A stretch of 51,134 nucleotides of DNA, taken from positions 1 through 51,134 of the forward strand of contig JAFYHN010000004.1 in NCBI GenBank assembly GCA_017539165.1, written 5' to 3'. This DNA comes from Eubacterium sp. Its GTDB lineage: Bacteria; Bacillota; Clostridia; Lachnospirales; Lachnospiraceae. Of this stretch, positions 1 to 48,618 are shown piece by piece (positions within the stretch are counted from its first letter, which is position 1; each line of letters starts with the position of its first letter). The translations under genes were made by a program, and so were the position numbers. The notes under the pieces were generated by a model, which saw nothing but the letters and a program-made list of their open reading frames with translations, did not search any database and was not told the origin of the DNA.

Positions 1-29
1 CTGTTCTGTTCTGTCAGTCTATCTTTCAT
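1..29 (-). CDS. Start of an unknown gene, cut by the window edge
   Basis: Only the first nine codons (MKDRLTEQN) are inside the window. The ATG overlaps the stop of the gene before it (GTATGA) and is preceded by AAAGGG, a usable ribosome site. It continues the chain of overlapping ORFs behind the methyltransferase and may be another piece of that locus. Product unknown. Confidence 0.4.
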
Positions 30-400
30 ACCAAGACCCTTTCATGTTCACACATTGTAGTAAGAGTAGGACAAAGACCATCAGAAAGATAAATCCTTTC
101 ATTCTTGTCAAATACCCCATCTCTTTCTTCAAACTCCATTATAGCCTTATCAAATCTGTCTGTCCTGATACCCAGCAGCTTTCTAAGATTCAGCCACAAT
201 TCCGGGTCAGGTATGGCAAAGAAACTGTCTGTTCTAAACCAGTGTTCAACTTTAGTTACAGGACAATCAAGTTTCCCGGCAATTTCCTTATTGGTAAAGT
301 TCTTGTGTTCTTTCAATAGCTGCTGAAGTTCAATTACATCAACTTCATATTTCCTTACATTTACTGTCTGTGGAACCACCAGATACTTTACTGTTTTCAT
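26..400 (-). CDS. Methyltransferase C-terminal/target-recognition fragment
   Basis: 124 residues. The last third (FDKNERIYLSDGLCPTLTT) is the typical C-terminal strand of phage cytosine-C5 methyltransferases, where a 'G-x-x-PTLT' turn closes the target-recognition domain. Residues 20-95 (TNKEIAGKL, VEHWFRTD, FAIPDPELW, FDKAIMEFEERDG) look like the helical insert such enzymes carry just before it. It lacks all catalytic motifs, so it can only act with the catalytic ORF upstream. ATG preceded by AAGGA; start overlaps the previous ORF by 56 bases in another frame. Either a separately translated subunit or a frameshifted tail of one ancestral gene. Confidence 0.6.
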   Translation of the reverse strand: MKTVKYLVVPQTVNVRKYEVDVIELQQLLKEHKNFTNKEIAGKLDCPVTKVEHWFRTDSFFAIPDPELWLNLRKLLGIRTDRFDKAIMEFEERDGVFDKNERIYLSDGLCPTLTTMCEHERVLV

Positions 401-554
401 AATTATCCTTCACAAGTATGTCAGCAATACCACCCTTACTTGCTGTTATGGTTTTACAGATTCCATAGATAGAAAACACAGACCCGTCATAACCATCATG
501 ATGTCCGTAAATATTGCCTATATATATGGCATCTGTGAAATTGATTTCTTCCAT
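345..554 (-). CDS. Methyltransferase target-recognition repeat fragment
   Basis: 69 residues. Contains IGNIYG...GSVFSIYGICKTITASKGG...ADILV, the same pattern as the neighbouring ORF (LGNIYD...GNVFLSDGLCPTI...GG...KILV), so it is one target-recognition-type repeat. The ATG has AAGGGA seven bases upstream. It overlaps the previous ORF by 37 bases in a different frame. Its last 20 residues (after ILV) look like read-through of the next frame rather than conserved protein. Confidence 0.55.
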   Translation of the reverse strand: MEEINFTDAIYIGNIYGHHDGYDGSVFSIYGICKTITASKGGIADILVKDNYENSKVSGGSTDSKCKEI

Positions 555-736
555 ACTTCCCTTACCAAGATTTTAGGTGCGTTGCTTGAACCTATCCCAC
601 CATTCTTTTCATTATCTGTTGTTCCTGAAATAATTGTAGGACACAGCCCGTCAGACAGAAACACATTTCCATTCTGACCTTTAGAATCATAAATATTCCC
701 AAGCAGCTTACATCTAATCAAGTTTTCCATCTTCAA
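518..736 (-). CDS. Methyltransferase target-recognition repeat fragment
   Basis: 72 residues. GNIYDSKGQNGNVFLSDGLCPTI and NAPKILV match the region that normally follows the QNRxR motif in phage C5 methyltransferases. It lies one frame off the catalytic ORF and overlaps its end by 23 bases. The longest form starts at a TTG (736); the first ATG is at 730. The ribosome site is weak, so a +1 frameshift from the catalytic ORF is a real alternative to independent initiation. Confidence 0.55.
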   Translation of the reverse strand: MKMENLIRCKLLGNIYDSKGQNGNVFLSDGLCPTIISGTTDNEKNGGIGSSNAPKILVREVWKKSISQMPYI

Positions 737-2543
737 TCAGTTCTTTAATAAGTTTGTCTGCTTTTTCAGAACGAATATAATATTTGTCTGCAACTTTCTC
801 TTCCAAGAAATCTTTCATAACATACTGTAAAGGAATCTTTTTAGGAAACTCAAACTCAATAAAATCTTTAGAAAGAAGTGATATGCAGAAACATCTATCC
901 CGGTTCTGTGGAATACCAAAGTCCTTGGCATTAAGGTCTTCCCAGTAATTGAAATATCCGCGGGATTTAAGATATTCAAGCCACTTATTAAAATCAGGCA
1001 TGTTCTGTTCTGAATGCACCTGTGGAACATTCTCCATTACAAGAACATCAGGCAGCTGGTCGTCAGGAAGTTCTTTAAGAATTCTTTCAACTTCCCACAA
1101 TAAACCAGACCTTGTTGATTCTCCACTCTCCCAGTCATCTTTACTCATACCACCCATTTTTCCGGCAACTGAAAGGTCAGTACAATTATGAGCAATTACA
1201 CCATTTGCTGTAAAACTATGGTCAATTTCTGTTTCCAAATCATATACGGGTTTTATTTGCTTGGTATTCTCTATACTCTGAATAGGAAACCAAATAAAAC
1301 CATCTTCATAGAAAGCCTTATCTTGCTTTTTCTTTTCTTTTTTGAACACAAGTTCATAACCATCTTTCTGATTACAAAGTCTACCTTCAATAACCACCTT
1401 TGGATTTCTTTTACATCTGTAAATTCTATATGGAGTTTTATAAACTTTTGCAACAATTTGAGCAAAACCATAAGTAAGTTTTTTACTAACAGACGATGAT
1501 TTATAAAGTCCATTTTTCACATACCCATCAGCACTAAAATATCCTTCTAACAAAGATTCAAGCAGATTACAAGGCATATCAAAAACAAATCCCGGAAGTG
1601 TCTTATTCTCGGCACCCTTTCCAAAAGGTTCTAAAAATTTTGATAACTCTTTTAATGGAATATGAATTTTATTTACTGTTCTTTCTTCTGAAATTGAATA
1701 ATTAAAATTACAATCCTCAAGATGAGAAATTATCTCTCCCATTTCATCTTTTGCACAACAAATAATAATTCCACCTTGAGTTCTAAACCAACCATCACCA
1801 AGGTATCGACCAACTATCCACCAGAAAGATTCATTATTCATCAATTCTGAAAGTTCATTCTTTTGTCTTGATTTTCTACCATCACTCCAATCAAAAGTTA
1901 TTCCATTCCATTCTGGAATAATCTCATTTTGATTTATTGCAACCCCTAAATAATGTTTTTTCGTAAGGTCTTTACACTCTACCCATTCAGGAGCCTCAAA
2001 TCTTCTACAGTTTCCCCTTCTGCCATCTGCATAAGTCGGAAAATATCTCGTAAGTTTTCTTGTATAAAATCTATGGTTTGCAGTACATTCAATCTCATCA
2101 ATCCCCATACCCTTGATTTTATAGATTTCTTTTTCCCCGGTCTTTTTACTTGCTAATACTTTCTGATACCTGTTTGCATGTGTCAAAACTTTATCATCTG
2201 CTTTTACATCAACAATTCTTTTCAATCCCTTATCTGTAAGAATCAAAGTATCAGCAGTAAAGCATGGAAACGAATAAAACATCAGATAATTATATTTGTC
2301 TTTATCTGTTATTTCCAAATCTTTCCCATGTACATCACGAATGTCAATTGTGGGAAAAGTGGTATTGTGAATGGCATTGTAAGAAGCTATGGCATACTTA
2401 TCAAACTCTACAGCCTTATAGATTTCAAAATCAACACCAATATCACGCATAGCCATTTCCTGTGAACCAACCCCGGAAAAAAGTGTTATCAGTCTGATTT
2501 TCTTAGTGAGTTCAGGCTGTGGCAAATCAAATAAAAATCCCAT
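714..2543 (-). CDS. DNA cytosine-C5 methyltransferase with in-frame intein
   Basis: 609 residues. Host part: motif I (LITLFSGVGSQEMAM, residues 18-32), motif IV (SFP...CTDLSVAG, split by the intein), motif VI (VMENVPQ, 502-508) and motif VIII (GIPQNRDR, 543-550). The intein occupies residues 94-453, and C454 is the methyltransferase nucleophile. After splicing the catalytic protein is about 249 residues and ends before the target-recognition domain, which lies in the short ORFs that follow. ATG preceded by TTGGAG. A terminator and a TTCTATTATTAAAATA motif lie directly upstream, so it probably begins its own transcript. Likely role: methylating phage DNA against host restriction. Confidence 0.9.
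   Translation of the reverse strand: MGFLFDLPQPELTKKIRLITLFSGVGSQEMAMRDIGVDFEIYKAVEFDKYAIASYNAIHNTTFPTIDIRDVHGKDLEITDKDKYNYLMFYSFPCFTADTLILTDKGLKRIVDVKADDKVLTHANRYQKVLASKKTGEKEIYKIKGMGIDEIECTANHRFYTRKLTRYFPTYADGRRGNCRRFEAPEWVECKDLTKKHYLGVAINQNEIIPEWNGITFDWSDGRKSRQKNELSELMNNESFWWIVGRYLGDGWFRTQGGIIICCAKDEMGEIISHLEDCNFNYSISEERTVNKIHIPLKELSKFLEPFGKGAENKTLPGFVFDMPCNLLESLLEGYFSADGYVKNGLYKSSSVSKKLTYGFAQIVAKVYKTPYRIYRCKRNPKVVIEGRLCNQKDGYELVFKKEKKKQDKAFYEDGFIWFPIQSIENTKQIKPVYDLETEIDHSFTANGVIAHNCTDLSVAGKMGGMSKDDWESGESTRSGLLWEVERILKELPDDQLPDVLVMENVPQVHSEQNMPDFNKWLEYLKSRGYFNYWEDLNAKDFGIPQNRDRCFCISLLSKDFIEFEFPKKIPLQYVMKDFLEEKVADKYYIRSEKADKLIKELIEDGKLD
1185..2264 (-). mobile_element. Intein with LAGLIDADG homing endonuclease
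   Basis: Residues 94-453 of the methyltransferase ORF (360 aa). It begins with Cys (CFTADTLILTDKGLKRIVDV, block A), has TANH (154-157, block B), LAGLIDADG-type helices at 241-253 (WWIVGRYLGDGWF) and 327-341 (LLESLLEGYFSADGY), block F (VYDLETEIDHSF) and ends VIAHN followed by Cys. All splice residues are present (C1, TxxH, penultimate H, N, C+1), and both endonuclease helices keep an acidic residue (GD, AD). It therefore looks competent for splicing and homing. Confidence 0.93.
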
Positions 2544-2633: not shown

Positions 2634-3512
2634 TTATGGCAGCATACCATTGTTTTCATCCAAAATGGAATCCAGTTCATCATCTGTCCAAGGTGTTCCA
2701 TCAGTATGTCTGAACTTAAAGATTATGAACGAATATGGCAGCAGAACCTCATCAAAGCTCTTATTATCCAGTCCTCTTAAAAAGTTCAGGGCATTTCCAT
2801 CAGAATAGTCCATGCCTCCATCTATTGCATCAAGCATCTGTTTTACATCTTTATATGTTCCCTGTGCATAACTTGTAAGACTTGGTGTCATAAGACCTGA
2901 CTTAATAGGTTTAGAAGTAGGCTTTTTAGAATTCATCAAAGACTTCTTATGTGCCAATTGTTCCCAAACTTTAGGAGCAAGTTCAGCAATACTGTTATGC
3001 AAGAAATCAGCATATGACATTAATTCATCAAAACTCCAAGTTTCAATATTTACGACAGGTTTATCTATCCAGATTTCATCACCCTGCTGGTCTGTAACAA
3101 GATTCTCACCATTCCACTTCTTTTTGTTAAGCATATTTGCAAACAGTGTGAACATCAATCTCCAAGTATCATCTATGTCATCTGTTCCACCATCACTTGT
3201 TACAGAACCGAAAGCATTACAGAAATCACGTAAAGATAAAAGAAGTACTTCACTATCTTCATTCCAAGTCAAATCATATTCGATATATTCGGCTTCCATA
3301 CCATCAGGAAGATTTGCCATATGATACTCATCTAAAGCATCTTGGAAATTAATCAATTTAGTATAAACATTATCATCATGATGTATCTGTGCCCTTTCAG
3401 TTCCCGGTTTGGAATACCAGTCTTCCTGCTGTCTTTCAAAATCTTTATAAGCCTGTCTTTCTTTCATAGAAAGGTTTCCAGACTTTACCAGTTTTCCGTT
3501 TCTTACGTTCAT
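2634..3512 (-). CDS. Unknown virion-region protein with IKS motifs
   Basis: 292 residues starting at the ATG behind AAAGGAGAAACGAT; an upstream in-frame extension overlaps the previous gene and lacks a ribosome site. Family not recognised. It carries KLVKSG at residues 7-12 and KPIKSGLM near residue 203; IKSGLM also occurs in the prohead protease. The middle is acidic, and the segment after IKSG (about 90 residues) looks like a separate domain. Last gene of the virion operon. Possibly an internal or scaffold protein processed by the protease, by inference from the shared motif only. Confidence 0.75.
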   Translation of the reverse strand: MNVRNGKLVKSGNLSMKERQAYKDFERQQEDWYSKPGTERAQIHHDDNVYTKLINFQDALDEYHMANLPDGMEAEYIEYDLTWNEDSEVLLLSLRDFCNAFGSVTSDGGTDDIDDTWRLMFTLFANMLNKKKWNGENLVTDQQGDEIWIDKPVVNIETWSFDELMSYADFLHNSIAELAPKVWEQLAHKKSLMNSKKPTSKPIKSGLMTPSLTSYAQGTYKDVKQMLDAIDGGMDYSDGNALNFLRGLDNKSFDEVLLPYSFIIFKFRHTDGTPWTDDELDSILDENNGMLP

Positions 3513-3531
3513 ATCGTTTCTCCTTTGAATT

Positions 3532-4536
3532 TTATCCGTAATATCTTTCCTGCCATTCAAGATAGTCATCTTCAATAACCGCAATTTTATCTTCAGCATA
3601 AGCATGGTCTTCAAGAATCATATAAGATTCTCCATCAGAACCCCAGTGTGCTCCCACTTCTTCATAATAACCGAGTTTGTCATCAATTTCCTCATCGGTC
3701 ATTCCTTTCATATCAAAGAATGGGAATTCCTTTTCTTCACCATATGGACCATATTCAACTGAAACATTTGTTCCTGTATACCCTGATTTAATCTGTCGAG
3801 ATGATTTTATGTTATACTGTATAATGGTATCATTAAAGCCATCACAGAACTCATCTGAAGAACCAGATGGTGCCGCAATATCTTCTGCATTGATTCCACC
3901 TTCAACATACTTCTGATACATGTCTTCAGCATATGCAGAACCTTTATCATAATCTGATTTTGCTGACTTAATCTGTCTTGAGTTTTTCAGAGTATGCAGA
4001 CCATTTACATTATCGTACATAGGGTTAGCGTCAAACTCTTCCGGGAAATCAACACCAACTGTAACACTTCCGGCAAGTGCAGCACCCAGTTCATCCCACT
4101 TCTCTATGAATGAATCAAGTCCATCTGGTCCACCATAAACACCCTCATCATAGATAGCAACATTCATTCGGTCATTCTCAACCCATGTATCATCAGCCTT
4201 ATTCTGCAATTCCTGAAGAACCTTTATGTCATCAGGATTATTTTTATCACCCCAGAATGTACAGCAATACTGAGAAATACCATAATCATCACCATTATGG
4301 AATTCTTCAACAGCCATATGACCAAACATACCAGCAAAAACATTTTCAACAATATTGTCAAGTTCAGTACTTGCCCTGTTGAAATCATCTTGGTCTTTAT
4401 CCCAATCAAAAGGTTTACCGGCATACTGACTGTAAGCATCTTCAAACAGGTCAATGTGGGTATTGATGTCAACCCCAATCAGGATACGGTCAGGGTCATT
4501 ATAATAATCATAATCAGACTTAACCACTCTGCTCAT
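3532..4536 (-). CDS. Unknown acidic virion-region protein with two SRQIKS sites
   Basis: 334 residues from the ATG that follows GGGAGACAGTAAT. Very acidic. Starts MSRVVKSD and contains NSRQIKSA (about 186-192) and SSRQIKSG (about 245-252), cutting the chain into three acidic blocks. Function unknown. The repeated peptide and the nearby protease suggest proteolytic processing during assembly. Confidence 0.75.
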   Translation of the reverse strand: MSRVVKSDYDYYNDPDRILIGVDINTHIDLFEDAYSQYAGKPFDWDKDQDDFNRASTELDNIVENVFAGMFGHMAVEEFHNGDDYGISQYCCTFWGDKNNPDDIKVLQELQNKADDTWVENDRMNVAIYDEGVYGGPDGLDSFIEKWDELGAALAGSVTVGVDFPEEFDANPMYDNVNGLHTLKNSRQIKSAKSDYDKGSAYAEDMYQKYVEGGINAEDIAAPSGSSDEFCDGFNDTIIQYNIKSSRQIKSGYTGTNVSVEYGPYGEEKEFPFFDMKGMTDEEIDDKLGYYEEVGAHWGSDGESYMILEDHAYAEDKIAVIEDDYLEWQERYYG

Positions 4537-4537
4537 A

Positions 4538-4837
4538 TTACTGTCTCCCATGTACAGGTTTAAGATATTTTCCACCGAAAATCTCAGAAACATCTGTATC
4601 ATCTAAATCCCATGTATAAGATTCAGTATCAACAACTTCTGCTGCAAGGAATTCACCAGAACCCGTATCATACATAATCTGTACAAACACATTTCCAAGT
4701 TCAAGAACATTTTCAAACTCACTATCTTCATCATAATCAAGATGTTCCTTGAGCTTATCAAGTTCTTCCTGACTGTCGATTTTCCATTCCTGAATAAGAA
4801 CTTCAGGGTCTTCATCATACTGATTCATAAATTGCAT
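4538..4837 (-). CDS. Small acidic protein, unknown
   Basis: 99 residues. AAGGAG is eight bases before the second ATG (MQFMNQYDED), which I take as the start; an ATG two codons upstream is too close. Strongly acidic, with no cysteines, membrane segment or known motif. Same operon as the virion-region genes. Confidence 0.7.
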   Translation of the reverse strand: MQFMNQYDEDPEVLIQEWKIDSQEELDKLKEHLDYDEDSEFENVLELGNVFVQIMYDTGSGEFLAAEVVDTESYTWDLDDTDVSEIFGGKYLKPVHGRQ

Positions 4838-4852
4838 ATTCATTTCTCCTTG

Positions 4853-5689
4853 TTAAAATGGAACATCTTCATCACTATATTCAGGTCCGGCATTATTTAC
4901 TGAACCATTTCTTAATCCGAGTTCATCACCCTTAGCTTCTACTTCAGCCCAAGGAATACCATAAACATACATTCTGTCAGAAGTTGTATAGATACAATCT
5001 CCATGAATGGTGAAATAGCCATAGCAATCACCATAATCATATTCTTCATCAAACGGAACTGATTCTGACATCTGCCACTCAATATCACCATTTCCTAGGA
5101 AACAACATCCTGTTTCAAAGTAATCTTCAGTTCCATCTACAGGTGCATGATAACCCATTCCACCGGCTTCATACTGGTCAACATCCTGAACAAGTCCACT
5201 ATCAATACATTCATTAACAGCAGCAATTAAATCCTTGACGCTGTTGAATCCATGATTGTCATTACCATTCAGAAACAGTCTTTCTGCATTTTCCCTGACA
5301 TCTGCTGTGTAGAAATCAATACTTGTAGCACCAGCATCCAGACGGTACATATTATCAAGGTACTCATCTGAACTTGCAAAATCTTCTTCACCCTGAATCC
5401 AGTCATGAACATTCTCGTAAAGCTGTTCAATCTCAGGACAAGGATTATCATTCATATATTCCTTAAAATAATAACCGGCATCAAAATCCATATTAGGATA
5501 TTCTTCAACGTTCACACCTTCAGCAATAAGCCAGTTCTTGAAGTCCTCAAGAAAAGCATTGTAAAGGTCAATGTTGACTGTATCTTCATCACCATTACGG
5601 TAAAACCAGTCTTCATCCCAGATATTGTACATGTTGCGGTAAACATTAGAATAACCGGTGTCTGCCTGTCTAATTCCTAAACTACTCAT
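4853..5689 (-). CDS. Unknown acidic protein behind an early-type promoter
   Basis: 278 residues starting at ATG behind AAGGAGTTAATT. Rich in Asp, Glu, Tyr and Asn, with no recognised domain and no IKS motif. The window's TTTTACTATnTGTTATAAT promoter lies 35-60 bases upstream, so this gene and those downstream can be expressed separately from the protease operon. Confidence 0.75.
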   Translation of the reverse strand: MSSLGIRQADTGYSNVYRNMYNIWDEDWFYRNGDEDTVNIDLYNAFLEDFKNWLIAEGVNVEEYPNMDFDAGYYFKEYMNDNPCPEIEQLYENVHDWIQGEEDFASSDEYLDNMYRLDAGATSIDFYTADVRENAERLFLNGNDNHGFNSVKDLIAAVNECIDSGLVQDVDQYEAGGMGYHAPVDGTEDYFETGCCFLGNGDIEWQMSESVPFDEEYDYGDCYGYFTIHGDCIYTTSDRMYVYGIPWAEVEAKGDELGLRNGSVNNAGPEYSDEDVPF

Positions 5690-5722
5690 AATTAACTCCT
5701 TAGATTTAGTTTTACTATCTCC

Positions 5723-5750
5723 ATTATAACACATAGTAAAATAAAATCAA
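5723..5750 (-). promoter_or_regulatory. Sigma70-type phage promoter
   Basis: TTGATT, 16-base spacer ending in TTTTACTATGTG(T), then TATAAT. Drives the gene starting at 5689. Shares the pre-10 block with six other sites. Confidence 0.8.
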
Positions 5751-5753
5751 GTA

Positions 5754-6626
5754 TTATTTGAAAAATTTCTTCACAGATTTAACTGATGGATATTTCTTTA
5801 ATGAACTCTTGATTGCTTTAGCACTAGGATAACGGTTCTTCAAACTTACTGAAGAAGCGAGTGGGAAAGTCTTCGGCTGCTTTTCCTGTAAATTAAGATT
5901 CTGGAACATTGCGGCAATCCAGTCATTTGTCGGACACTTTTCATAAGCCTCTTCGATGGCACTTGTAATTTGTTCACGAAGACCTGTTTCCAAATCCATA
6001 AGTGCTGCTGTACCACTATCAACAATAGAACCTGAAGTTGAAACACACATTGCCGCAGGAACTGCCGGAAATCCCACGCAATCCCAGTCAACAGCAAGAT
6101 ATGTATCTTCATCAACTCTTGTAAGACCATTACCGATGTCAATCAGGTCTCCGAATCCTCTTGAACTTGTACCAATCATACCAGTCTTGGCAAGTGAATA
6201 GATAATATTTCCTTTCGGAGTATCCATCAAATCACAATCTGCAAGTACCAAATTGTTATCTGAAATACTGAAATCATTAATTCGGATTGCAACATTCTCA
6301 AGGAGAACTTCAGAATTATCTCTGTGCTGGTCCTCACCCCAGAAACATTTATTATCAAGAGCTGCTTTAATGAAAGGATTATCATGAATGGTTTCCCACA
6401 ATTTCTTACTGAAAACCATATTGTTCAATGTCGGAATATCATAATAAGCTACAGGCATGTTCTTCCAAGAATAAAGAATACCTGTGTCATTCTGTTCAGG
6501 TTTATAACCCTGCATGATACGGTCTTCAGTTTTCATAAGACCTGATTTAATAAGTGTGCTTTTTGTATCTGCAAAAGATTTGGCTGAAAACCAGCTGCCT
6601 TTAATCCATACACCTTTCTGATTCAT
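5754..6626 (-). CDS. Prohead maturation protease (S80/gp21-like)
   Basis: 290 residues. Expected serine-protease features of the T4 gp21/S80 group: GEDQHRD (about 98-104) with the likely catalytic His, TPKGNIIYSLAKTGMIG followed by TSSRGFG with the likely Ser, and AVDWDCVGFPA with the Asp. It would cleave scaffold and capsid-associated proteins inside the prohead. It carries STLIKSGLM near residue 26 and AKAIKSSL near 272, bracketing the catalytic domain as expected for autoprocessing. The basic tail (KYPSVKSVKKFFK) may be a removable targeting peptide. ATG with AAGGAG 14 bases upstream. Confidence 0.82.
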   Translation of the reverse strand: MNQKGVWIKGSWFSAKSFADTKSTLIKSGLMKTEDRIMQGYKPEQNDTGILYSWKNMPVAYYDIPTLNNMVFSKKLWETIHDNPFIKAALDNKCFWGEDQHRDNSEVLLENVAIRINDFSISDNNLVLADCDLMDTPKGNIIYSLAKTGMIGTSSRGFGDLIDIGNGLTRVDEDTYLAVDWDCVGFPAVPAAMCVSTSGSIVDSGTAALMDLETGLREQITSAIEEAYEKCPTNDWIAAMFQNLNLQEKQPKTFPLASSVSLKNRYPSAKAIKSSLKKYPSVKSVKKFFK

Positions 6627-6678
6627 ATATTTTAATATCTCCTTAATTATCTTGAGTATATTAAAATATATAATAGTT

Positions 6679-8034
6679 CTATCCTAAAAACTGTTTGATT
6701 TCTTCAAGGTCAGCCTTAAACTCATTTATTGATGTTGAGAACCATTCTTCACCAGATTCAAGTGTTGTATGAATACTCATATCATCCCATTGAATCTCAC
6801 CAATGGTAACATGCTGTCCATTGTCTTTCTTCTGCAAGTTTCCATACTTCTTATTTATCCCGGAAATACCAGTATCTAACCACAGACCTGAATCATAAAC
6901 AGCACGATTTATATCAGCCGTATTGAAACCATGTTCAACAATTTCACCATTCAATCTTCTGCTTTTGATAGATTTTCTTCTGAAAGAACTCTGTATATCA
7001 AACTGAGTAAAATCAGCCATAAACATATCACCATCTTTACCATTAGGTTCACCACGAATCTGAGGTTTCAAAGTTGTACCACTTTCAGCAATAATTCTCT
7101 CAACTTCATCATCAGGAATAACTCTGATAATTTTCATGGCATCTGCAATAAGCCAAGCCTCATCATCACTTGCATGAACATTAGTCTTGAATCTGTAATA
7201 ACCATTTTCAAAATCTGCTGTATCATAAAAACCAGCCTCATAAGGGTCTTTAGGATGTGCTGAATTCTTTCTGCGTTCCTGTGATTTTTCAGTATAATCA
7301 TATGTTCCTGCATACTCTACTTCAGCAAAAACTTCCTGTGAATGGAAATAGTCAAAATCTTTGTTTCCCTTATGTGGATAATCCTGTCTGCCACGATGAC
7401 GCATTAACGGTAATGAACCCATGTGAAGTCCGGGTCTGTAAGCAAGATTCTTTTCAATAGTCTTACAAGTAGGATTTCCTGAACTATCCAGAATAGGTTC
7501 ACCATTGTCATCAACTAAAATTCTGAAAGCTCCCTTACCAGCCTTATACCATTTACCAATCTGATAGCCACTTGCTGCATTGATATAAAGTGGAAACAGG
7601 ATTCCTTTATATTGATATGTATTAGGGTCTGCAGGATTATACTCAGTACGAAACATTTTATATGCTCTGAAAGTTGCACGTTCGGGAAGGTCAGCATTCA
7701 CATCATAATCAAGTTCTTGGTCAGGCATTCCTTCATGATACATCCAGTTATTACCCTCTTTATCAGTCCAAGTTTCACCTTCTACACGAGAGAATATCTG
7801 TCTGAGAGATTCGGCATTTCTTTCACAACCATTCATAACCTTATCTTCCTTGTACCAGAATTGTCCTACATTCCTAGAGAGTTTATAATCCTTTACCCAT
7901 TTATCTTTAATTGTATAATCATCTGTTTCATCAATAATTTTACCCGTAACAGTATCTTCAAGTAACCAGCCTTTAGGTAAAGTAACCAAATTTACAGAGC
8001 CATCTTTATTTGTTTTTGCAATAGTTCCTGTCAT
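6679..8034 (-). CDS. Large unknown virion-region protein
   Basis: 451 residues. The part around residues 195-245 (AYRPGLHMGSLPLMRHRG, then VFAEVEYAG) resembles a conserved segment I recall from uncharacterised phage proteins. RRKSIKSRR at 352-360 separates a 340-residue N-terminal part from a 90-residue C-terminal part containing IGEIQWDDMSIHT. The start is supported by its position three codons from the upstream stop. Function unknown; location and IKS site suggest a virion or morphogenesis protein. Confidence 0.75.
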   Translation of the reverse strand: MTGTIAKTNKDGSVNLVTLPKGWLLEDTVTGKIIDETDDYTIKDKWVKDYKLSRNVGQFWYKEDKVMNGCERNAESLRQIFSRVEGETWTDKEGNNWMYHEGMPDQELDYDVNADLPERATFRAYKMFRTEYNPADPNTYQYKGILFPLYINAASGYQIGKWYKAGKGAFRILVDDNGEPILDSSGNPTCKTIEKNLAYRPGLHMGSLPLMRHRGRQDYPHKGNKDFDYFHSQEVFAEVEYAGTYDYTEKSQERRKNSAHPKDPYEAGFYDTADFENGYYRFKTNVHASDDEAWLIADAMKIIRVIPDDEVERIIAESGTTLKPQIRGEPNGKDGDMFMADFTQFDIQSSFRRKSIKSRRLNGEIVEHGFNTADINRAVYDSGLWLDTGISGINKKYGNLQKKDNGQHVTIGEIQWDDMSIHTTLESGEEWFSTSINEFKADLEEIKQFLG

Positions 8035-40945: not shown

Positions 40946-42208
40946 CTAGATTATGACATCCTTATCTGTTGATTCAGGCTGAGTGCCATAAAACTTAGCA
41001 TACTTACCAGACTTATTCGGAACAGCCTGAGATACACTATCTTCAAACTTTTCCCATTTTTCTTCAACACGCTTATTTAGTTCTTCTTCAAGATTATTAT
41101 CATAGATGTACTGAATCAGCATGTCCCGGTCCATAACAAGGGCAAATGTGTCATCAAACAACTTCTTCTTGGTCTTGTCAGCAGCAATGTATTTAAGGGC
41201 ACTTTCAAGAGAATATCTGCCATTACTTGGATAATATTCAGATTCTTTGTACTCATCAAACCATTTGTTATCAATGAGCCATTGTCGTACTTCAGGACCC
41301 TCCATAGGTTTCTTATCAGGATTGTTTTCCCAAGCACATGACTTTGCTGCCGGAATGGAAATATCTCCTGTCTTTGTACGAATGTCAAACAGGTAATCAA
41401 CCCCGGTTACAACATTGTCGATACCATATTGATAATAATAGGTGTAGAATCCTTCTCTGAATGGTCTAGGTACTTTTCCCTTGGTAACCTTAATCTTGTT
41501 TGTGCCACCGATAGGAACATCTTTCTCTCCATCTTTTATGGTAATCTTCTTGGCTGTTGCGAGCCAAGCAACCATAAAACAATAGAAATCCAGAGCCTTA
41601 CCACCAGCACGACTGTATTTTTCAAAGCTGCCGAATTCAACATTGTCACGAATCTGTGAAACAATAATCAGGAGAATGTTTTTATCTTCAAGGGTCTTGC
41701 AGAGCTGTGGGAAAAATTCCTGTGAAAGATACTTTGCTTTGCCCATACCATAAGTACCTTTCATTTCCTTATCAGCTTCAATCGCCTTGATTCGTTCTTC
41801 AGCACGTTCATCCTGTTCCTGACTTGTTAAAGCATCAAGAGAATCAAGTACATAAATGCCGAACTCATCTTTCTTCAAACTTTCAGCAAACTTGGTAATA
41901 TAATAATATGCTTCTTCAACAGTTTCAGGTGCATCTGAATTTTCATCATGAATGTCGAACCCATACATCTTCTGAGTATCGAATGAATAACCACGTTCAC
42001 AGTCTGCATACATCCACTTAAATTTATCACCAAGCAGATAATGAGACCAAGCAATGATTTCATTACACAGATAAGATTTACCTGCTGATTTATCACCACA
42101 TAGATTGAAGATACGACCACCGGGAACACCATAAACACCTTTATCTCCACCTGTAATCAAATCTATAAGCATACAACCAAATCTAAAATATGTTGCATTT
42201 GGTATCAT
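40946..42208 (-). CDS. RecA/UvsX-like recombinase
   Basis: 420 residues from the ATG behind AAAAGGAGAAAAGACAAT; a longer frame overlaps the upstream gene. Walker A GDKSAGKS (38-45), YADCERGYS, Walker B-type IYVLDSLDAL, and VSQIRDNV, the L1-adjacent segment of RecA-fold proteins. Works with the ssDNA-binding and UvsY-like proteins encoded upstream in strand exchange and recombination-primed replication. Confidence 0.85.
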   Translation of the reverse strand: MIPNATYFRFGCMLIDLITGGDKGVYGVPGGRIFNLCGDKSAGKSYLCNEIIAWSHYLLGDKFKWMYADCERGYSFDTQKMYGFDIHDENSDAPETVEEAYYYITKFAESLKKDEFGIYVLDSLDALTSQEQDERAEERIKAIEADKEMKGTYGMGKAKYLSQEFFPQLCKTLEDKNILLIIVSQIRDNVEFGSFEKYSRAGGKALDFYCFMVAWLATAKKITIKDGEKDVPIGGTNKIKVTKGKVPRPFREGFYTYYYQYGIDNVVTGVDYLFDIRTKTGDISIPAAKSCAWENNPDKKPMEGPEVRQWLIDNKWFDEYKESEYYPSNGRYSLESALKYIAADKTKKKLFDDTFALVMDRDMLIQYIYDNNLEEELNKRVEEKWEKFEDSVSQAVPNKSGKYAKFYGTQPESTDKDVII

Positions 42209-42224
42209 ATTGTCTTTTCTCCTT

Positions 42225-42587
42225 TTAAGAACGTTTATTATACTGTCCGATAACTCTTTCAATGTCTGTTCGTTTTGCATAATAAAGTCCATTCTGTTCA
42301 TGACCAAGTTTCTTAATTTCACAATCATTCTTTTTCAGAATATATTTGATTGCAGCAAAAGAGATTTTATATTTCTTACAGGCATCCTTTATAGGCATAT
42401 AAGAATCATCTACTGTCCATTCATCAAGCCACTTGTGAAACTTCTGTTCATCAACTTTATAACGGTCACGACCTTTCTCTTTATACTGAATGAGAAACCC
42501 ATACTTCTTACCATATCTATAAATCAATGGAACCGAAAAGTCATATCCTTTATCAAGACAGGCTTTTACCATTTCTTTTTGATTCAT
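42225..42587 (-). CDS. Small helix-turn-helix-like DNA-binding protein
   Basis: 120 residues from ATG behind TTGGAGGTTTCAT. Basic and helical; PIKDACKKYKISFAAIKYIL (about 60-80) looks like a helix-turn-helix, with a second possible one at DKGYDFSVPLIYRYGKKYG. Sits between ssb and recombinase genes. Likely a regulator or DNA-binding accessory factor. Confidence 0.6.
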   Translation of the reverse strand: MNQKEMVKACLDKGYDFSVPLIYRYGKKYGFLIQYKEKGRDRYKVDEQKFHKWLDEWTVDDSYMPIKDACKKYKISFAAIKYILKKNDCEIKKLGHEQNGLYYAKRTDIERVIGQYNKRS

Positions 42588-46695: not shown

Positions 46696-48618
46696 TCAAA
46701 ACAGACTTGAACCAATCTGAACATCATAACCATATTGTTCAAGGCGTTTCTTAGCCATATTGATATACCACTTCCTGTCAAGTTTGATACTCATAGGAAT
46801 ATCTTTTACAGACTTATTGTAAATGAAACAATGTTCAGGTGTATCCTGAAATCTCTCCGGTTTACCACCATTCTCCTTGCACTTGCCAAGGTAAGTATCA
46901 TTCTTGTCGGTACTTGCAAAAATACGGTATGTCTTGTCCGTAAAATACTGTCCGTTATGCCAAGCTGCAGAATACACACCTGATAAACGGTACACATTCT
47001 GGAACATTATCATATCATTACAATTGTTGATTGTATCTTCAACAGGAATACCTTCAGTAATATATTTTACCAAAGCATCATTAAGAATCGGAAGATTGTT
47101 ATCAAGAGGGTCATTCTCCTTTACATACTTTCCCTTACGTTCAAGAACCCCACTTTCAAAACGGAATACATAATTGTTTACATCTTTGGCATAATACTCA
47201 GTTATCCAGTCTACACCCATTCCCATTCCGGTTCTTGCACACCATTCTGCATGAATGTGATTGAATACTTTTTCAGTACGTTCATCTTCAGCAAGTTTGA
47301 TAATCAGACCATCAGTATTACTCTGAATCAATTCAAATCTATCACCCAAGGCACTCTCAAGATGTTCTATAAGGTCTAGGAGTAAGAGCTGACCATTGAT
47401 ACAGATGTTGTTAGCCTGTACCGGGTCGAATGCTTCAGAATTACGGTCCTTGGTTATACCATACTGGCTGTTCAGTACGATTTTATAAACATTGGATTCT
47501 TTCTTCTTCCCGGCTTTCTTCAAGGCAACACGGGTTTCAAAAACTTCCTTGAACTTCTCAGGATGCTTAGCATTGCGGGTAAGAAGATTATACTTCAACA
47601 TCAATGACGGGTAGTAGCTTGTTACATCGGCATGTGCGATTTTACCTTTAGTATGATAAGGTTTATCAGAAGCACCATGTACACCACCCCAACCAAACTT
47701 ATGTGGAATCCCGGCAACAGTTGTTTCAAAACTTGCCGAGTAATCCCTGTCTTTACAAGCCTGAATGAACCAGTCCATAACATATTTATATTTTTCAAGT
47801 TGGATTGTAGGAACCAATGTAATGTTGAACTCATCATTATGTTCCTGTTTTTCACAGTCAGTTACACATGCTGTAATCTGACCTTTAGTTTTGTTTACAT
47901 ATTCAAAAGGGAAGTCAAAGGTTTCAATCAGGGCAATCTGAGCATTAAAATCTTCAATACGATAACGGAATACTTCGGTGGTCTGTTCAACATCATGACC
48001 ACAATACTTAATACTCTTAAATATTTCTTCTTTGGTCAAAGGTCTGTCAAGATTGAAGTCTACTTCAGTTTCTTCAATGTCATTACCCATGAAAGCTTCA
48101 AGAAGTTTCAATGATTCAGGTGGAACTTTCTTGACCATTACATCATATACATAAAACTGTTTGATACTCTTGAAATTATATTCATGATACAGTTCAAAAG
48201 GCTTCTTTCCCTCAACAATCAGTTTGTCGGAAATCTCTTTAGGGTCATAGCCGCACATAATTCCCTTAAAGATTGGGGTATCATAATGTTTATTATTATA
48301 ACCAACCCATATACAGCCTTTATGCTGTTCATAATATTCTTTAAGGGCAGCACGATTATTTACAATGATTGTTTTTGTCTTGGCTATAGGGTCAATCAGG
48401 ACAACAAGCCAGTCATACATAAATACTTCAAAGTCATGGAAAACAAGACCATAAGGGTACTTCTCAGCTGTGAAATCATTGTAGCCGGGAATATCTGTGA
48501 TTGTTTTGTTCATGTGGAAAAGTTCTTCATAACTTACTTTTCTTTTCTTTATAGGTAATGTGGCTGTTTCAGTTACAGCCGGTTTATTAGGTTCAATATC
48601 AAATTCAAACAATGCCAT
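46696..48618 (-). CDS. Family-B-type DNA polymerase with 3'-5' exonuclease
   Basis: 640 residues. Exonuclease: HDFEVF (61-66, D62 and E64), GYNNKHYDTPIF (106-117), YCGHDVEQT (205-213). Polymerase: motif A ADVTSYYPSLM (330-340), motif B YKIVLNSQYGI (378-388), motif C QSNTDG (432-437, replacing YGDTD). Compact for the family. The ATG directly follows TTCTAATATTATAAT and has no Shine-Dalgarno; a terminator precedes it, so the transcript probably starts here. Confidence 0.88.
   Translation of the reverse strand: MALFEFDIEPNKPAVTETATLPIKKRKVSYEELFHMNKTITDIPGYNDFTAEKYPYGLVFHDFEVFMYDWLVVLIDPIAKTKTIIVNNRAALKEYYEQHKGCIWVGYNNKHYDTPIFKGIMCGYDPKEISDKLIVEGKKPFELYHEYNFKSIKQFYVYDVMVKKVPPESLKLLEAFMGNDIEETEVDFNLDRPLTKEEIFKSIKYCGHDVEQTTEVFRYRIEDFNAQIALIETFDFPFEYVNKTKGQITACVTDCEKQEHNDEFNITLVPTIQLEKYKYVMDWFIQACKDRDYSASFETTVAGIPHKFGWGGVHGASDKPYHTKGKIAHADVTSYYPSLMLKYNLLTRNAKHPEKFKEVFETRVALKKAGKKKESNVYKIVLNSQYGITKDRNSEAFDPVQANNICINGQLLLLDLIEHLESALGDRFELIQSNTDGLIIKLAEDERTEKVFNHIHAEWCARTGMGMGVDWITEYYAKDVNNYVFRFESGVLERKGKYVKENDPLDNNLPILNDALVKYITEGIPVEDTINNCNDMIMFQNVYRLSGVYSAAWHNGQYFTDKTYRIFASTDKNDTYLGKCKENGGKPERFQDTPEHCFIYNKSVKDIPMSIKLDRKWYINMAKKRLEQYGYDVQIGSSLF

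Follow-up and report, generated by a model that had tools for sequence, protein, structure and literature searches.

Putative class 1 homing intein at the catalytic cysteine of a phage-type C5-cytosine methyltransferase probably encoded as a core and separate module ORFs

An insert at motif IV of a phage C5-cytosine methyltransferase (MTase) is read here, with a probability of about 0.88 and on sequence evidence, as a class 1 homing intein. Splicing would join the MTase core, which would then assemble with specificity modules encoded by separate ORFs. The window analysed is an entire contig (C27 of assembly G000, 51,134 bases; assembly size 3.2 Mb). It bears phage genes: 3 of 10 scanned ORFs matched PHROGs, among them those for a DNA polymerase at 46696-48618 and for a UvsX-like recombinase at 40946-42328.

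Precursor ORF and anatomy of the intein

The precursor ORF is located at 714..2543 on the minus strand, starts with ATG, is preceded by GGAG 8 bases 5' of the start, and encodes 609 aa (70.9 kDa). A C5-MTase core (motifs I-VIII by Pfam) is split by the intein. Pfam matches are DNA_methylase (PF00145, E=5.8e-40) and Intein_splicing (PF14890, E=3.1e-11); Hint_2 and LAGLIDADG_3 match below their cut-offs. The N-extein (aa 1-93; 2265..2543, minus strand; Pfam, junction reading) extends from motif I (FSGVGS) through YSFP. The intein (aa 94-453; 1185..2264, minus strand; Pfam, junctions, alignment) consists of a class 1 Hint domain and a LAGLIDADG endonuclease, begins with Cys, ends with H452-N453, and measures 360 aa and 41.7 kDa. 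The C-extein (aa 454-609; 717..1184, minus strand; Pfam, M.MpeI alignment) carries motifs IV, VI (ENV) and VIII (QNRDR) and stops short of the target-recognition domain (TRD). Together the exteins comprise 93 + 156 = 249 aa, about 29 kDa. The junctions (marked by slashes) read YSFP/CFTADT...ANGVIAHN/CTDLSVAGK. The initial annotation, which let a 360-aa intein start after SFP and finish with VIAHN, is thus borne out by Pfam and by the junctions.

The codon of C454 (1182..1184, minus strand) specifies both the +1 splicing residue and the catalytic Cys of motif IV, as had been proposed. In phmmer alignment C454 pairs with residue 135 of the MTase in PDB entries 4dkj and 8c56, where the sequence reads SFPCQDLSVQG; this enzyme we take to be M.MpeI, with C135 as its nucleophile. 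All 14 aligned precursors share residues C94, T154, H157, D250, D339, H452, N453 and C454.

The insert has the features of a class 1 intein: Cys at position 1, block B TxxH (T154/H157), C-terminal His-Asn and Cys at +1. It is in frame and is cleanly missing from some homologues (the sister locus L053; P1-type empty alleles). Two LAGLIDADG motifs, as in homing inteins, were recognised by sequence reading and alignment, motif 1 (WWIVGRYLGDGW) at 1788..1823 with acid D250 and motif 2 (LLEGYFSADGYV) at 1521..1556 with acid D339, both on the minus strand; the earlier observation that both acids are kept agrees with their invariance in the 14 precursors. The exteins show the motifs of C5-cytosine MTases: I, IV (PC), VI (ENV) and VIII (QxRxR). 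A chance arrangement is excluded by the IMG/VR locus L052, whose intein in this position is 73% identical, together with the intein-free sister L053.

Cys94 would attack the preceding Pro-Cys bond (N-S shift), Cys454 would take over the N-extein by transesterification, and Asn453 would cyclise and release the intein. The new peptide bond would restore SFPC with C454 as the MTase nucleophile. The earlier statement that the MTase would be inactive until the intein leaves is supported by the known chemistry of both families. The LAGLIDADG domain would cut intein-free MTase genes at the conserved site and copy the element into them. The ligated core would combine with target-recognition modules from separate overlapping ORFs, the last of which, with motifs IX-X, would lie on contig C74 of the same assembly.

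Recurrence of the insertion site, empty alleles and relatives

The recurrence of the site and its empty forms were observed directly. In tblastn searches of phage records the whole ORF matched 571 and the intein alone 108; the intein-only search also matched NrdD, ThyA and an N4/N6-type methylase. No relative was found in viral contigs by the whole-ORF query, but C-extein and alignment queries did find relatives there. Comparison of insertion sites, as recommended in the initial annotation, showed that inteins fill the P/C junction in contigs of phages, plasmids and bacteria from several phyla, and likewise in Dmt of phage P1. ORFs were read with an intein before the motif IV Cys in Lactobacillus phage Nyseid, Propionibacterium phage B22, Erwinia phage pEa_SNUABM_30, EBPR siphovirus 2, human faecal phage contigs MT835477 and MT835926, phage P1 Dmt, a P1-like plasmid, plasmids of Rhizobium leguminosarum and Euzebya pacifica, and Pseudomonas phage Lana, where residue -1 is Asp. 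Broken relatives occur: MT835926 has stops within the intein, and Mannheimia phage 587AP2 loses its frame right after the junction.

In scans with an alignment of 12 such inteins, relatives were encoded in 43 of 58 matched genome-contig stretches and in 132 of 135 viral-contig stretches. As the junction motif was part of these scans, they document breadth, not exclusivity of the site. The genome-contig relatives presumably belong, judging by record titles, to Bacillota, Spirochaetota, Actinomycetota, Chloroflexota, a cyanobacterium, Pseudomonadota, Verrucomicrobiota and archaea. Intein-bearing loci were parsed in 128 cases of 220 examined, among them repeated contigs (e.g. L052/L099, L003/L083, L005/L081), hence 94 distinct inteins. 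Viral contigs contributed 80 retained loci out of 132 relatives and 80 out of at least 531 in a second scan. Cys1, terminal [HK]N and +1 Cys are present by construction, being demanded by the parser. Among the 94 distinct inteins, block B His is found in 94, block B Thr in 93, and the two endonuclease acids (D) in 85 and 87. Such retention of the acids is as expected for a homing parasite, and motif IV would suit a parasite because it tolerates no imprecise loss. Two Methanomethylophilaceae MAGs (L091, L098) have 141-aa mini-inteins in this position of the C5-MTase, a length that leaves no room for an endonuclease. No description of an intein site at the C5-MTase catalytic Cys was found among the matches listed for the searched part of the PMC full-text literature, subscription papers being outside its scope.

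The P1 dmt gene (L041:1770-4811, OP279344) encodes an intein at the C5 motif IV Cys. Among the matches listed, no annotation naming an intein in P1 Dmt was present, nor was one described in the portion of the full-text literature searched, the P1 genome paper (subscription) lying outside that scope. Of 5426 complete E. coli genomes, 492 were matched by a P1 dmt query that includes the intein, and 151 of these hold at least 80% of the query; an empty-site query of 200 bases likewise matched 492 of 5426, of which 339 hold at least 80%. Sampled matches were 708 bases long in 26 of 40 cases, exactly the 1731-base intein-bearing query minus 1023. The empty allele of NZ_CP158355 reads GGAACACCT/TGTCAG and the occupied allele GGAACACCA/TGT...AAC/TGTCAG. 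The empty P1-type allele is thus 1023 bases shorter, with no other gain or loss at the junction. This polymorphism of occupied and empty dmt alleles fits a homing element, as far as can be judged from sequence.

Histories of intein and extein were compared by identity. L052 is 74% identical to the window in the C-extein and 73% in the intein; L053 is 72% identical in the C-extein, without an intein. L056 and L072 share 84% of the C-extein and 37% of the intein, so different inteins took one site. Nine pairs combine extein identity of at least 60% with intein identity of at most 45%, and 48 pairs intein identity of at least 50% with extein identity of at most 45% (many share a member). Over 86 loci the two identities correlate with r=0.83 (permutation maximum 0.10), which indicates that much of the history was vertical or within lineages.

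Known inteins of phage enzymes resemble the window intein in part. Among phage records, its top relative is the NrdD intein of Lactococcus phages P1048, AM5, AM4 and 949 (32-33% identity over all 360 aa), which likewise has class 1 ends and stands before a Cys (phage 949 read), but whose extein is the anaerobic ribonucleotide reductase (junction RV/C...KN/CGYLS). The thymidylate synthase intein of Aeromonas phage PS1 (L044) also precedes a Cys (LTP/C...THN/CHFS), presumably the ThyA nucleophile; it differs in extein family and shares 23.6% identity with the window intein. Thymidylate synthase, with its P/CH site in PS1, is also a pyrimidine C5-methylating enzyme. Mycobacteriophage DNMT-1/2 inteins, found as tblastn relatives, are LAGLIDADG inteins in phage DNA methylases like that of the window, according to the available parts of PMC5050341 and PMC9957025, but their hosts are N6/N4-type methylases in the same part of PMC5050341, whereas the window enzyme is of the C5 type. 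The methylase junction of DocMcStuffins and Pacc40 reads HV/C...KN/CPLQFDIV, unlike C5 motif IV; in these two actinophage methylases the intein does not occupy the same site. PHROG 26446, which matches the window intein, bears the name 'anaerobic ribonucleoside reductase large subunit', as do mycobacteriophage methylases (NC_011287, NC_028946, NC_051685 and others); the name was probably carried over to the methylases via the shared intein.

Probable split methyltransferase, module ORFs and repeat tracts

The methyltransferase named in the initial annotation is confirmed as to C5-MTase motifs I-VIII and proved incomplete as to the remainder: the precursor ORF ends before the TRD and motifs IX-X, which are probably encoded elsewhere. 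The ligated product of about 29 kDa would consequently be a core and not a complete enzyme, most likely a core or first subunit. Downstream of the core, three TRD-like modules are encoded on the minus strand by separate overlapping ORFs lying in other frames. The module at 518..736 has a 46% match over 65 aa in L220 and matched no Pfam or PHROGs family; the module at 345..554 is 81% identical over 48 aa to a separate L053 ORF; segments of four phage DNA methylases match the module at 26..400 with 42-49% identity. The contig then ends within a 5-base repeat (ACAGA x 2.8; 1..14, minus strand), and C74 ends in the same repeat. In Dulem virus 39, an intein-free named relative, the same gene continues through TRD repeats to motifs IX-X in one 542-codon frame.

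Three copies of the 13-base word ACAGAACAGAACA exist in the assembly: one within C22, one at C27:2-14 and one terminating C74. The exact sequence shared by the C27 and C74 ends is only 9-13 bases of repeat. Inward from its repeat end, C74 has some ten ORFs (51-114 codons) distributed over all three frames; most contain TRD-like motifs, and one resembles an HNH endonuclease by eye. A 316-codon ORF at C74:33123-34070 carries RKLTERECWRLMGF...GNSI (motifs IX-X). Coverage of PF00145 is 18-211 by the window ORF and 181-322 of 324 by the C74 ORF. L053 has a module with 87% identity over 46 aa to the first one of C74, and it also holds the 81% match of the window module. One search of the window's own assembly gave, beyond the window, only short weak matches; another gave one weak match on C74 (E=0.049), which is the likely continuation. 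From the shared repeat end, the complementary PF00145 coverage and the L053 module matches, one module array probably spans C27 and C74, with C74:33123-36007 (L301) as the probable second half of the gene.

Separate encoding recurs: of 116 loci with a recognised motif IX/X, 56 encode it in an ORF apart from the core (near-duplicates included). The core-to-motif-X layout was parsed for 177 of 209 loci, with some core starts set at an upstream Cys and motif VIII distances unaffected. Sequencing error as the source of the broken frames is less likely, as the layout recurs in other contigs. Intein-free C5-MTases of the GFPCQDLSV group (L230-L258) also often have motifs IX-X in another frame than the core, with no repeat tracts there. 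The split C5-MTase M.AquI has motifs I-VIII in one ORF and the TRD and motifs IX-X in an overlapping second ORF. By comparison with its description, the window MTase would likewise be split and differs by its many module ORFs and by the intein in the first.

Among 110 ORF junctions taken from 30 selected loci, the offset of the start from the preceding stop is -5 in 14, -1 in 13 and -11 in 9, the nearest start having been chosen at each junction, which favours small offsets; 21 of the 110 have no start near. At L131:5482-6658 a run of five ORFs repeats one offset, each start lying 11 bases ahead of the preceding stop (five of the nine -11 cases), a sequence pattern that suggests translational coupling of modules. 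Such coupling is plausible in some arrays and unproven for the window, whose three junctions are looser (-5 TTG, -34 ATG, +31 TTG). Elsewhere in the window (2634-8034, minus strand) several predicted proteins have short motifs in common, SRQIKSG, KPIKSG and AKAIKSS among them, which may be processing sites or linkers.

Of 42 loci parsed among relatives (43 chosen), 12 have non-triplet repeats of at least 18 bases in the region from motif VIII to motif X. This region holds 19 tracts, 0.21 per kb, vs 12 tracts, 0.046 per kb, elsewhere, some of the latter maybe in later parts of arrays. Tracts at the border of core and first module were seen in L052, L056, L072, L101, L180, L183, L185, L187, L191 and L260-L288. 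A scan for module A yielded 41 loci; in 24 the module is preceded, at a distance of up to about 130 bases, by a tract of at least 15 bases (units of 2, 4, 5 or 7). In the 24 tract loci frame A is open in 24, +1 in 24 and +2 in 0; in the 17 tract-free loci frame A is open in 14 and +1 in 4. Openness of +1 is associated with the tract (Fisher 1.4e-7 with near-duplicates counted separately; 16/16 vs 4/14, Fisher 3e-5, after grouping by eye). Among the tract loci, 9 have module B in frame +1, 1 (L286) has it in frame A alone, past a stop, and in 14 it was not recognised. Relative to the core, module A is in frame in 4, at +1 in 12 and at +2 in 6 (2 without assignment). The same module A follows (GA)16 in five contigs and (GA)18 in one, in different frames.

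These patterns suggest, at the level of sequence, a three-way frame switch between specificity modules in relatives, i.e. phase-variable specificity in phage C5-MTases. One frame would fuse module A to the core, the next would be open past A to module B, and the third would truncate. In phase-variable MTases such as Mod a non-triplet repeat tract can change the reading frame; the tract of the phage relatives would differ in selecting among specificity modules, not only between on and off. Frame-switched modules in a phage MTase were not described among the matches listed for the part of the PMC full-text literature searched, subscription papers lying outside it. The window itself has no repeat tract of at least 18 bases from motif VIII to its end, and the ACAGA repeat at the C27 and C74 ends sits inside the module array, later than the core border. 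A family with two layers of control, a core kept dead by the intein (-1 Pro) and a choice of modules by repeat slippage, in which ACAGA at the C27/C74 break would be the window's tract, is accordingly entertained as a tentative possibility of well below even odds.

Splicing as a switch, other explanations and significance

The initial annotation proposed that splicing serves as a regulated on-switch. Under this explanation splicing would be conditional (redox, temperature) or slow, and the intein would be kept since methylation is delayed. The enzyme cannot work before splicing, yet an unspliced enzyme without its nucleophile in place signifies necessity, not regulation. Residue -1 is Pro in 127 of 128 parsed loci (the parser let through only P, D or V); eight apparent -1 Asp or Val cases were parsing errors with the intein start set a few residues early, and Lana alone has Asp. 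Pro at -1 attenuates N-terminal cleavage about 1000-fold in other inteins, according to the accessible part of PMC8891592, and slow splicing is possible because of this unfavourable residue. The Pro is, however, forced by motif IV, which has Pro there, and the inteins are either adapted to it or slow to splice. Cys at -2 in EBPR siphovirus 2 and L088 could form a disulfide; the window N-extein has zero Cys. Phage inteins are described as sitting in active centres, and their role as regulators has been proposed and discussed, in the available part of PMC5050341. Against the proposal stand 339 of 492 P1-type dmt genes and the sister L053, which are without the intein, the endonuclease acids, which are kept, and the window sequence, in which no signal-responsive feature or other sign of conditional splicing was seen. 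The on-switch is therefore not supported and is considered improbable.

Less probable again is a dead gene, in which the intein no longer splices or the MTase is a decaying pseudogene with its C-terminal part broken into frames. The stop at 714 before the TRD, the three further frames after it and the loose coupling of the window module starts to the previous stops would be so explained. The core and intein motifs are nevertheless intact, as are motifs IX-X on C74, the broken layout recurs in other contigs, and a window module remains 81% identical to its separate L053 counterpart. Module A of relatives is conserved in its own frame (pN/pS 0.42 vs 1.24 and 0.98 in the other frames; 15 modules, uncorrected, 105 non-independent pairs). 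An ordinary LAGLIDADG endonuclease or intron-type insertion in place of a splicing intein, of which phage methylases do bear examples of other endonuclease insertions (accessible part of PMC9957025), is very improbable in view of the full Hint signatures at both ends and the clean empty alleles of the P1 relative.

The homing intein remains the preferred reading. Judged by its sequence, the intein at the catalytic Cys is real, its role as an on-switch is unproven, and the insert resembles a genetic parasite that has fared well more than a demonstrated switch. An MTase probably divided between a core and many module ORFs, the array containing a repeat, goes beyond an intein at one more site. 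The natural occupied and empty P1-type dmt alleles of E. coli offer a tractable system for homing, for splicing after -1 Pro and for methylation delay. The catalytic Cys of C5-MTases is a recurrent intein site across phages, plasmids and bacterial contigs of many hosts.
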